Below, piece by piece: positions 5,448-23,437 of a DNA stretch of 27,567 nucleotides. The first letter of the stretch is position 1, and every line of letters starts with the position of its first letter. The notes below the pieces were generated by a model. The model saw only the letters and a program-made list of their open reading frames with translations, was not told where the DNA came from and ran no database searches. The translations under genes were made by a program, and so were the position numbers. This DNA is from a virus, in the IMG/VR virus record IMGVR_UViG_3300013123_001016, positions 1 to 27,567 of that record; one strand, 5' to 3'.

Positions 5448-5501
5448 CTTACCCCCTGATCCCCGATCCCTGATCCCTAATACCTAATCCCTAATACCCG
5501 T
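5448..5501. repeat. Heptamer tract, junction 5445/5504
   Basis: Seven-base units (CCCTAAT, ACCTAAT, CCCTGAT) fill the whole gap between the lectin-like gene stop and the fibre-like gene start. On the coding strand the unit reads GGGATTA/GGTATTA, with three TTAG steps. Confidence 0.92.
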
Positions 5502-5503
5502 CC

Positions 5504-6559
5504 TCACGACCACGCCGGAATCTCCACCCCCACCTGCAACGCATCCAGCGCCGCCGCATCCCACGCGCCGCCGCCCGCCGGCTGCTCGTAGTATGTCTCA
5601 CCCTTCAGTAGCAGATAGCCCGGCGCAAGGTTCACCACCGTCTGCGGTGTGGCGCCTGAGTAGACCGTGCTGCCTTGTCGCACCACATCCCACAACTCGT
5701 TCGAGCCGCTCTCTGCTACCGCCGCCTGGAACACCGGCTGCACCAGATTGATCGCCGTCACGTAATCGGGTGTCGCCTCGATCTCAAACAACTCCATCTC
5801 TCCGGGATTCTCCCCCTGGACCCAATCCGTCGTGTTGGCCGGCACATCATCCACACAGGCATAGTGATCTGCGCCCGCGCTGGGCGAGAACTCCGTCACC
5901 GCCCCGTCCCCGTTCGCCCGCAGAAAGAACACCCCGCCGAGGCCGGGATAGCTCGTCTGGAAACTCCCGCTGGTATCATTGACGGCGATGTCGTCCACAT
6001 ACAACTCCGCAGACGTCGCACCTACCGGCCCGAAGATCTTGAATGCTCGCACCCCCGTCGCGCTGGTCGCCTTCGTATCCGCTCCGCTCACTGCGAGGTC
6101 CGTCACGCCATTGACCTTCAGCGTGAACACCCCGGTCGCGTCATCGATGACTGCGTGTCCCTCGAGCACATACCACGTTGCCGCCCGCAGCACGATCGTC
6201 CCCGCTGCCAGCAGCACCCCCGATTCCGACCCTCGATACAGTTTGAATGTCTGCGTCGGCCCGTTGAATACCAGCGTCAACTGCGCATCCCCGTTTTCGT
6301 CCTGGAACTGGAGATAGGGGTATCCCGCAATCCCGCCCGCCTCCAGATACCAGGCCAGGCGAAAGTAAAACTCCGTCAGGTTTGACCCGAACACATGGGT
6401 CACATACCCACACGCCCCGTTGATCGGCCCGCCGTGCACCGCCAGACTGTACGTCCCCGTCCGCGCTTGCACTGAGCTCACACTGGCCAGTCCGTTATTC
6501 GCCCCATTGAGCTCCTGCGCCGAGCCTGTCTCAAACCCTGCTGTCACCAGCCTCGCCAT
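5504..6559 (-). CDS. Lectin-like (concanavalin A fold) tail protein
   Basis: 351 aa. Residues about 5-200 look like a jelly-roll lectin domain: GFETGSAQELNG, ARTGTYSLAVHG, EFYFRLAWYLEAGG, LQFQDENGDAQLTLVFN, WYVLEGHAVIDDATGVFTLKVNG, AELYVDDIAVND. This is the domain found in many phage tail proteins that wrap or decorate the tail tip. The C-terminal 150 residues are another beta-rich domain with a DDVPANTTDWV segment. The ATG at 6559 has a strong ribosome site (AGGAGG, 6 nt spacing) directly following a heptamer unit. Likely a minor tail or receptor-recognition protein. No catalytic residues were identified. Confidence 0.72.
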   Translation of the reverse strand: MARLVTAGFETGSAQELNGANNGLASVSSVQARTGTYSLAVHGGPINGACGYVTHVFGSNLTEFYFRLAWYLEAGGIAGYPYLQFQDENGDAQLTLVFNGPTQTFKLYRGSESGVLLAAGTIVLRAATWYVLEGHAVIDDATGVFTLKVNGVTDLAVSGADTKATSATGVRAFKIFGPVGATSAELYVDDIAVNDTSGSFQTSYPGLGGVFFLRANGDGAVTEFSPSAGADHYACVDDVPANTTDWVQGENPGEMELFEIEATPDYVTAINLVQPVFQAAVAESGSNELWDVVRQGSTVYSGATPQTVVNLAPGYLLLKGETYYEQPAGGGAWDAAALDALQVGVEIPAWS

Positions 6560-6566
6560 CGTCCCC

Positions 6567-6602
6567 TCCTGATCCCTAGCACCTAGTACCTAATACCCAA
6601 TC
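6567..6602. repeat. Heptamer tract, junction 6559/6601
   Basis: Units CCTGATC, CCTAGCA, CCTAGTA, CCTAATA and CCCAATC lie between the distal tail gene and the lectin-like gene. The end nearest the ATG merges into the AGGAGG ribosome site. It contains TTAG and CTAG steps. Confidence 0.9.
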
Positions 6603-7398
6603 ATACATACGGCGCATAGAACGCCACCGTCACCGTCGTTCCCCCGCCGTACCCGCTGCTCGTCACGGCCAGCGTATTGCCGCCCACCGCGAACTCCAAC
6701 CAGCGCAGCGCCCCCGCGTGGCTGATGTTTCCGCTCACGTCCGCCCCGTCCAGCTCCGCTGTCCAGTCCCCGCAATCGATCACCAGCGTCTCCCCGCTCC
6801 CCACCGTCCCCGTGTACTGCACCCAGATGGATCCCACCGCAAACTTCGGGTTCGTGATCGGCCCTGTCACCGTGATGATGGCCTGCTCGACCTTGTACGT
6901 GCCGCCGTTCGTCACCGTGATGTTCTGCGGCGACTGGGTGATCGCCGTTGGCCCCACTGTCGTCAAACTCTCTGCGTACCACCACGGATCGGCGAGCAGA
7001 AACTCCACCACGAACGTGTAGGCGCTATCCAATCCCTTCGGCTCAAAGTCGATGGTGGCCACCACCTCGGCTGTGGCAGTCCGGATGACTCCGCCGAACT
7101 GGTGCTTCAGCGTATGCTGCCCATCCCTGGCGAACAGCCCGCGCAGCGTATCCAGGTTCGCCCGCATCTGCGCCTCGCTCCCCGCCCCACCGGTCGTCGG
7201 ATGGATGTTCTGCACCCACATCGCCAGCGTCGCCGTCCGCTGATCCGGCCGCTTCGCCACGTACAGCCGGCCCGTGCGGCTCGGCACGACCACATTCTCC
7301 CCGCGCCGAGGGGGCACATTCAGGGGCGCGCCGAGCCACTGCACGTTATACGCGAGCGTCGTCAGATCCACCCCGTCGTACTCCCACTCCTGCGCCAT
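6601..7398 (-). CDS. Distal tail protein (Dit-like)
   Basis: 265 aa from the ATG at 7398. Features expected of siphovirus distal tail proteins are an N-terminal half with WEYDGVDLTTL, a conserved R-rich turn (PPRRGENVVVPSRTGRLYVAKRPD), TLAMWV, then NLDTLRGLF, TAEVVATIDFEP, FVVEFLLADPWWY, and a C-terminal beta-sandwich (NPKFAVGSIWVQYTG, LVIDCGDWTAELDG). The ATG is preceded by GAGGGG with 3 nt spacing. The open frame extends 18 codons upstream (VLGIGYWGLGIEGP), but that stretch is the heptamer tract, so the internal ATG is preferred. It lies directly after the tape measure gene, as is usual for Dit, and would join the tail tube to the tip. Confidence 0.85.
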   Translation of the reverse strand: MAQEWEYDGVDLTTLAYNVQWLGAPLNVPPRRGENVVVPSRTGRLYVAKRPDQRTATLAMWVQNIHPTTGGAGSEAQMRANLDTLRGLFARDGQHTLKHQFGGVIRTATAEVVATIDFEPKGLDSAYTFVVEFLLADPWWYAESLTTVGPTAITQSPQNITVTNGGTYKVEQAIITVTGPITNPKFAVGSIWVQYTGTVGSGETLVIDCGDWTAELDGADVSGNISHAGALRWLEFAVGGNTLAVTSSGYGGGTTVTVAFYAPYV

Positions 7399-7402
7399 CG
7401 GC

Positions 7403-22528: not shown

Positions 22529-22635
22529 CCCACTCTCTCATCCTGCTGTTGGGGTAGTATGTCCATGCTGGAGCACTTCCCACACTCACTGATGGTGAGA
22601 TGCTTCAAATTGCACACCTTACTCAGGCTCGCCAT
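22525..22635 (-). CDS. Short 36-aa Cys-containing protein
   Basis: 36 aa, unrecognised. It starts [13 protein letters not shown] and contains C8, then C18 and C21 (ECGKC), so a zinc knuckle is possible. The ATG at 22635 overlaps the exonuclease stop (TAATG) and is preceded by AGGAGGTGA at 4 nt spacing, the strongest ribosome site in the window. Its TGA overlaps the portal start as ATGA (22528-22525). The exact tiling between two genes and the ribosome site argue that it is real. It may also serve as a translational coupler for the portal gene. It could be a product with no function of its own. Confidence 0.7.
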   Translation of the reverse strand: MASLSKVCNLKHLTISECGKCSSMDILPQQQDERVG

Positions 22636-23174
22636 TACGTCACCTCCTGTGCCCTCAAGTAGCACTGATGGATCACCTTCGCGTCCCAGAGGGCATTATG
22701 CTTTTGCTTGGTTGTCTCCTTCAGCCCAGCAAATTCTTCTCGATCTATATCTGGATCGATCCCTTTTACCCTCAGTAGTGTAGATAGATCAAACGGGATG
22801 TACTGGATGAAAGAGGGAACCGATAAAGCATTACCGAATAAGTTGCAGAACAAAACCCAGTCATAGGCCAGACAGTCAGACCACATCTCGATATTGTCAT
22901 CAAGTGAGTACAACCACATGGTGAGAGCACCACTAACAAATTGGCGGTCGCCGCGGACAGTCACGTAATCGCGGCCCAGGCCACAAAAATCCGGCTTGCC
23001 CGTGAGAATGAGCTTCTCCACCACCTTCTCTCTGACCCATGAATCGACCTGTGAATGATCATAGTCATCCAGTTCAGCATAGAATACCCGACCGTCCTCT
23101 GCCTCTAGCCCAATGGAGATCAGGGTCGTTTTCTGATGCAAACCGGTAAATTCAGTATCGAAGAAGACCTTCAC
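22635..23174 (-). CDS. DEDD-type 3'-5' exonuclease
   Basis: 179 aa from GTG 23174 (GGGGTGA a few bases upstream). [10 protein letters not shown] carries D6 and E8 (ExoI), CLAYDWVLF carries D105 (ExoII) and [12 protein letters not shown] carries H159 and D164 (ExoIII), so the two-metal active site of the DnaQ/RNase T superfamily is intact. The short length and the layout resemble the Rv2179c-like 3'-5' exoribonuclease group. It is more AT-rich than its neighbours and lies among packaging genes between the Sm-like protein and the portal, an unusual site, so it may be a recently gained accessory gene. Whether it acts on RNA or DNA cannot be told. Confidence 0.85.
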
Positions 23175-23177
23175 GTG

Positions 23178-23393
23178 TCACCCCATCACCTGGATAAAAT
23201 CGACATTGCTCACGTCGATTACGATCTCGCCACCCACTGGTGCTATCTCACCCTTTCCCTTCAGTAACTCTGCGTTCCGCAGCACCAGGTAATTGCCCGT
23301 CCGCGCCCACAATACCCCTCGGAATGCCCGATCCGTCCGGGTATTGACGATTACCTGTCGCAAACATGGATACCGCGGCGCAAATAATCGCAT
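23178..23393 (-). CDS. Small Sm-like phage protein
   Basis: 71 aa from ATG 23393, just after the tract at 23414-23437; GGAG lies about 11 nt upstream. The open frame continues upstream, but those codons are low-complexity and repeat-derived. VIVNTRTDRAFRGVLWARTGNYLVLRNAELLKGKGEIAPVGGEIVIDVSNVDFIQVM has the five-strand look of an LSm/Sm fold (a G-x-L-W strand, a YLVL strand, and a closing V..VDFIQV strand). Similar small proteins lie next to the terminase in other siphoviruses. The function is unknown, and the Sm-like call is by eye. Confidence 0.7.
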   Translation of the reverse strand: MRLFAPRYPCLRQVIVNTRTDRAFRGVLWARTGNYLVLRNAELLKGKGEIAPVGGEIVIDVSNVDFIQVMG

Positions 23394-23413
23394 TATCTTT
23401 TCTGCTCCACCAT

Positions 23414-23437
23414 CGATCCCTAATCCCCAATCCCCTA
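23414..23437. repeat. Heptamer tract, junction 23393/23435
   Basis: Units CGATCCC, TAATCCC and CAATCCC sit directly after the terminase stop. This is the rightmost tract; none was seen from 23.44 to 27.57 kb. Confidence 0.88.

Follow-up and report, generated by a model that had tools for sequence, protein, structure and literature searches.

Twelve tracts of degenerate heptamers (coding-strand consensus GG[GT]A[TC]T[AG]) are present at gene junctions of the late operon in a siphovirus-type genome, the IMG/VR record IMGVR_UViG_3300013123_001016, which was analysed at its full length of 27,567 bp (62% GC; hereafter the window). We regard it as probable that these are repeats of the short tandemly repeated repetitive (STRR) or G-rich heptamer type, inserted into the tight junctions of a Chloroflexota-type siphovirus and tolerated there without a sequence-specific function. 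Few known gene arrangements are as compact and conserved as phage virion operons. In this one the junctions change and the gene order does not: repeats enter, vary between relatives, and provide stops and ribosome sites.

A strict finder (at least 2 exact degenerate units) reported 12 places in the window, and all 12 tracts listed in a first-pass annotation of this DNA were recovered where it had put them, with the G-rich unit on the coding (minus) strand. An extended finder (at least 3 units) reported 11 tracts; 100 third-order Markov simulations of the window gave a mean of 0.07 and never more than 1. Of the gene region, 3.6% is junction sequence, and ~41% of the junctions (12 of about 29) are occupied. 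The tracts hold about 3 to 8 units each and 52 units in total, with a nearly invariant first GG; the commonest units are GGGATTA (9), GGTATTA (9), GGGATTG (8), GGTATTG (5), and GGGATCA (5). The twelve tracts are as follows.

5454-5498, minus strand, between the tail gene 5504-6559 and the gene 5026-5445; sense strand GGTATTAGGGATTAGGTATTAGGGATCAGGGATCGGGGATCAGGG
6571-6597, minus strand, between Dit and the tail gene; palindromic element at the orthologous junction of locus L348
7404-7441, minus strand, between the tape measure gene and Dit
9664-9705, minus strand, 5' of the tape measure gene; holds the TAG stop of the open reading frame (ORF) 9691-10116 and provides a GGGG ribosome site
10797-10840, minus strand, between the tail terminator and the major tail protein
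11269-11296, minus strand, between Neck1 and the tail terminator
11679-11708, minus strand, between head closure and Neck1
12736-12761, minus strand, between the gene 12743-13057 and adaptor Ad1; codes for a C-terminal VLGIGD and the TAG stop
13702-13741, minus strand, between the methyltransferase gene 13746-14366 and the gene 13051-13692
14371-14405, minus strand, between both methyltransferase genes
17991-18021, minus strand, between the capsid and glycosyltransferase genes, behind a palindromic CCCCTAC element
23415-23436, minus strand, after the terminase large subunit; the start of the next gene is uncertain

The tracts had been described as lying exactly between the stop of one gene and the ribosome site of the next. 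This is accurate for most of them: the gap from stop to ribosome site is usually filled by the tract, the distance from the upstream stop to the tract is 0-10 bp on the sense strand, and the end of the tract provides the ribosome site, at times along with the upstream stop. It is inaccurate at 9663 and 12732, where the upstream TAG lies inside the tract and the last residues of the upstream product (GIRY and VLGIGD, respectively) are tract-encoded, and at 17991, where the tract starts about 35 bp past the capsid stop, behind the G/C-rich palindromic element.

Next to related phages, the tracts appear as additions to junctions that are otherwise tight. About 175 related loci were compared; they were found with TerL (terminase large subunit), portal, adaptor, and Dit searches and belong to a broad phage family with the same gene order as the window. 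Gene calls in the relatives and in the candidate genomes described below came from a simple codon-usage script, and single start positions are approximate. Junctions that overlap (ATGA) or measure <10 bp in relatives are 36-56 bp long and tract-filled in the window. The gap from Neck1 to the tail terminator is most often a 4-bp overlap in relatives (mode -4 bp) vs 36 bp in the window, and that from the tail terminator to the major tail protein has a median of 9 bp vs 56 bp. The gap from the methyltransferase 13746-14366 to the gene 13051-13692 is -4 bp in 4/4 relatives vs 53 bp, and that between the two methyltransferase genes is -4 bp in the sole relative having both genes vs 41 bp. In many relatives the major tail gene has a Shine-Dalgarno sequence inside the last part of the preceding gene (GAGGAGGTTTGA); that gene end is altered in the window, where a new ribosome site, GGGAGGG, lies 3' of the tract. 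The comparison shows insertion, probably after divergence from the known relatives.

Relatives carry tandem repeats of their own at these junctions, mostly with a period of 7 and with a unit that varies by phage: AGTGGAG in four junctions of L337 (head closure to Neck1 included), GAGAGTA in L030, GGAGTTA in L106, CGTGAAA in L340/L341, GATTGCT in L154, and three kinds of junction repeat in L033. The window's own heptamer flavour is found at the head closure to Neck1 junction of L285. L348, with 55-76% identity to the window in its Dit and tail genes, has palindromic elements at the three orthologous tail junctions; one such palindromic family occurs five times in that locus, and the element has no exact match in 251 genomes of the candidate order. 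No tandem repeat was seen at the orthologous tail junctions of L347. The type of repeat therefore turns over at orthologous junctions. Since relatives have either no gap or a different repeat at the same places, the impression is one of insertions tolerated at gene boundaries, not of a conserved control signal.

The first-pass annotation had left a choice between a mechanism that targets junctions and tolerance only there. A heptamer array shifts the reading frame, and the TTA forms carry a stop every 21 bp in every frame. When the sense frames were counted, 24/36 in the 12 junction tracts contained a stop, compared to 0/27 in in-gene heptamers and octamers (the octamer total among these 27 frames includes one junction array). 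Arrays of period 7 reside in junctions, those of period 8 in genes (p = 0.003). The in-gene stop-free repeats, at sites that vary among relatives, affect the gene 13051-13692, the portal, capsid, and protease genes, and the N-terminus of a tail assembly protein; octamer arrays within genes were found at 13284, 16064, 17049, 18988, 19098, and 19666. Neither these arrays nor the in-gene heptamers or the octamer at the 11632 junction had been noted in the first-pass annotation; examples are given here.

10355-10383, minus strand, stop-free heptamer-like tract within the start of the tail assembly gene, giving extra N-terminal residues
21249-21279, minus strand, stop-free heptamer tract within a variable linker of the portal gene
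13284-13327, minus strand, octamer array within the gene 13051-13692, an in-frame insertion relative to relatives
11642-11665, minus strand, octamer array GCGCAAAG at the head closure to Neck1 junction, ending in the ribosome site AAAGGAG

Stop-bearing heptamers are thus confined to junctions, and stop-free repeats also occur in genes, in variable linkers. This difference supports the tolerance half of the choice and not the targeting half, and it points to arrival without regard to site, with later loss from coding sequence.

The density of tracts is unusual for a phage, as had been claimed. Against the 12 tracts in the window, the strict finder reported 4 across 152 related viral loci (1.43 Mb in all); three of these resemble chance matches, and one (in L106) is a junction tract. 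A 58-bp tract had no blastn match in 50,697 phage records (INPHARED) with the BLAST low-complexity filter on. The contig L277, which has no detectable homology to the window proteins, carries the same heptamers at six places by its virion genes, all in sense orientation (8/8 matches); the tracts encode the C-terminal tails of several of its proteins, e.g., GIGD and IGY, and hold the upstream stop at several of its junctions. Two consecutive junctions in a tail/baseplate-like operon of a further phage contig (L324:3804-4227), also unrelated to the window, contain GGGATTA tracts.

The repeats had also been called host-type. The nearest relatives of the window in genome collections are mostly contigs of Chloroflexota (Anaerolineales-type) metagenome-assembled genomes (MAGs), and a TerL scan of genome contigs gave best identities of 72-76%, in Anaerolineales/Anaerolineae/Chloroflexi MAGs. 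Among 400 sampled Chloroflexota genomes, 41 had any match to the broad pattern. The GGGATTA/GGTATTA/GGTATTG flavour is present in genomes such as G463, G476, G434, G177, G352, and G209, and tracts of this flavour in candidate Anaerolineales-type genomes adjoin gene ends, like those of Xanthomonas and Nostoc; the Anaerolineales MAG G002 is in the same order list as these, and AGTGGAG-type tracts occur in 22/251 genomes of that order. A genome search with the reversed pattern is no valid control, since units read backwards may, after rotation, match that same degenerate consensus. Tracts of at least 3 units number 399 per Mb in the window, 44 in G463, and 17 in G434 (unselected samples of candidate genomes), and the occupied junctions are 3/73 in G463 (Fisher p = 1e-5 vs window) and 1/74 in G434 (p = 4e-7). 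Equal density in the junctions of the host, the finding that would have spoken against an unusual phage operon, was not seen in these candidate genomes, to which the comparison was limited. The shared flavour in several genomes of one Anaerolineales-containing order makes host-type a reasonable label and a host source plausible; the one phage/MAG pair (below) gave a negative result.

G-rich heptameric repeats with the units GGGAATC (Xanthomonas) and GGGGA(T/C)T (Nostoc) are placed next to gene ends and none were found on Xac or Nostoc plasmids (Rehm et al., 2015; PMC4692102); cyanobacterial STRR have been described as well (PMC2670836). The window tracts share with the Xanthomonas and Nostoc repeats the tandem 7-bp units (at least 2), the G-rich degenerate consensus, and the intergenic bias within 50 bp or less of a stop on the sense strand (or of a start, antisense). 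They differ in consensus and in the absence of a four-unit or G-quadruplex preference, and they occupy about 40% of the junctions of a phage late operon, in one orientation and abutting the next start. In Cluster K mycobacteriophages, Start-Associated Sequences (SAS) occur singly at non-structural genes, as a conserved 13-bp sequence that relatives share and the host lacks (Pope et al., 2011; PMC3203893). Like the window tracts they are repeated G-rich phage sequences just 5' of starts and contain the ribosome site; nearly all SAS have one orientation, as do the tracts, which are placed at the next gene's ribosome site. Unlike SAS, the tracts are tandem, of no fixed length, not conserved in relatives, and located in virion genes. 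The TAACTGA direct repeats of marine Beggiatoaceae and cyanobacteria (MacGregor, 2015; PMC4679880) are likewise intergenic heptamers adjoining start codons, but they are invariant and chromosomal, with a role unknown, whereas the window unit is another one, degenerate, and in a phage. Borg tandem repeats (Schoelmerich et al., 2023; PMC9879509) are also fast-evolving and extrachromosomal, lie between and within genes, and are rare in the host; they arise independently per site and are A-enriched, in contrast to the one G-rich heptamer alphabet recurring at 12 sites here. We found no published report of heptamer tracts in phage junctions in the open-access literature. The tracts are a variant of the known heptamer (STRR) repeats, and what is new is their unusual concentration in a phage.

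Heptamer repeats have long been known from cyanobacteria and are still unexplained. Phages that are related but differ in the heptamer at a given junction provide a natural experiment on the origin of such repeats and the sites that tolerate them.

Orientation is strongly biased: 12 sense and 0 antisense in the window vs 12:27 in the sampled candidate genomes (p = 1.7e-5). Several RNA-level properties were considered. Ribosome sites after tracts are as strong as the others (mean -8.5 vs -7.7 kcal/mol, p = 0.56), and stronger initiation sites were rejected as an explanation. Leaders after tracts are slightly less folded, not significantly so (p = 0.07). An RNA G-quadruplex as the common denominator was rejected with the G3x4 motif in 5/12 junctions only, and hairpins were rejected with no inverted partner tracts within the window. 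Inverted heptamer pairs 10-60 bp apart, with the potential to form hairpins, do occur elsewhere (L249, L223, L230, L306, and L352, comprising other viral contigs and one candidate genome).

The course of events that we envisage begins with a repeat pool of the host lineage, from which the units would come. Arrays that shift the frame and bring in TAG or TAA would truncate most of the genes they enter and would therefore persist in junctions, stop-free repeats being able to persist in genes also; the placement would then be due to purifying selection and not to targeting. A tract in a junction may do little harm, in that the upstream gene can end at the tract's TAG. G-runs in sense orientation would make a leader that is poor in C and ends in a usable Shine-Dalgarno sequence. 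Where the junction is tight, the tract itself would be the leader, and its fit to the ribosome site may explain the orientation. The net effect would be the conversion of translationally coupled, overlapping genes into separately initiated genes, with the coupling lost; the system allows a test of how important translational coupling between virion genes is.

Some findings weigh against tolerated insertion of host-lineage repeats. The candidate genomes, which are not known hosts, have 9-23 times fewer tracts per base. The junction heptamers of L154 (GATTGCT and GATCGAT) are found nowhere else in the 7-Mb MAG G002 with which that contig was binned; this is the sole phage/MAG pair, and the contig is possibly misbinned. 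One alphabet is common to all 12 tracts, which independent slippage would not yield. Some relatives have long gaps at the Ad1 to head closure and head closure to Neck1 junctions, which makes both junctions less telling on insertion. The 12:0 sense orientation could also indicate a selected function. Such a function might be that of a G-rich, C-poor start-associated leader that the phage has multiplied through its late operon and that tunes the translation of virion genes, with ribosome standby, an RNA-binding protein, or a G-quadruplex as variants. The uniform orientation of the tracts next to starts (12/12), its recurrence in L277, the nearly invariant first G pair, and the slightly less folded leaders would all fit this explanation, but the tracts are missing from the relatives, or unrelated repeats take their place at these junctions, a quadruplex is possible at a minority of them, the ribosome sites are no stronger, and copies exist within genes too. 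We therefore consider it unlikely; a selected role is possible for the tracts and not needed.

The common alphabet, the excess over candidate genomes, and the pattern in the unrelated phage L277 could also reflect an active process, with a recombinase or polymerase from the phage or the host setting the same heptamers into gene boundaries. Stop-free repeats also occur within genes and no candidate enzyme was identified. Moreover, blocks shared between tracts are no longer than in a random draw of units; block copying between tracts was accordingly rejected, as recent copying should leave such blocks. Junction-directed planting thus seems improbable to us. Also quite unlikely is a phage-borne self-spreading element: an active, possibly templated process would plant one alphabet in one orientation and turn overlapping genes into independently initiated ones, and the tracts would not be host passengers. 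That the junction repeats are kept as linkers promoting single-gene exchange among phages is very unlikely: phages of this kind are mosaic, and tracts border several accessory genes (12732, 13701, 14372, and 17991), but relatives have the same glycosyltransferase/methyltransferase block without tracts, and as units differ in relatives, homology would rarely be shared. The record is a metagenomic contig, and an assembly or binning artefact, raised in the first-pass annotation as a reason for doubt, is highly improbable, as the unit order differs from tract to tract, the gene order is that of the relatives with reading frames intact, and other contigs have the same pattern. We thus retain tolerated insertion of STRR-type repeats as the preferred explanation.

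The remaining junctions over 20 bp had been said to carry other repeats. Two of them do so.

12073-12112, minus strand, dispersed repeat at the Ad1 to head closure junction (TCCTTCGACTCCGC...CTCAGGATGA; also given as 12078-12114, CCTGAGCGGAG...GGAGTCGAAGGATC)
19361-19461, minus strand, palindromic repeats GGGGCAGGCACGG...CTGCCCCTAC at the protease to capsid junction

The dispersed repeat has a second copy at 127-163, within the integrase gene. No repeat is present in either 22529-22634 or 25525-25600; the former, a 106-bp gap, may hold a 34-aa ORF that continues into the portal start codon. In many relatives the TerL-portal spacing is 140-230 bp.

The single long late operon lies on the minus strand and the integrase gene on the plus strand. 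Its gene order is HNH, terminase small and large subunits, portal, prohead protease, and HK97-type capsid, followed by a block with glycosyltransferase and methyltransferases, the head-tail adaptor, head closure, neck, and tail terminator, and then by the major tail protein, tail assembly ORFs, tape measure, Dit, and tail genes. The names HNH, small terminase, tail assembly, and tape measure were assigned from position and sequence, with no profile match. The glycosyltransferase/methyltransferase block between the capsid and adaptor genes (13051-18040) is retained in many related phages though it is non-structural. Two overlapping ORFs in the interval between the major tail protein and the tape measure (9691-10388) are arranged like tail assembly genes produced through programmed frameshifting. 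The tape measure gene contains about eight in-frame 66-bp repeats (TIWTAISTFFTTTWTTIQTTAT) at 7981-8493, in a length-setting region that may expand or contract, and about four in-frame 51-bp repeats (VTQAGALADMERTVLAR) are found at 3377-3596 in the large tail-tip gene 1637-4540.

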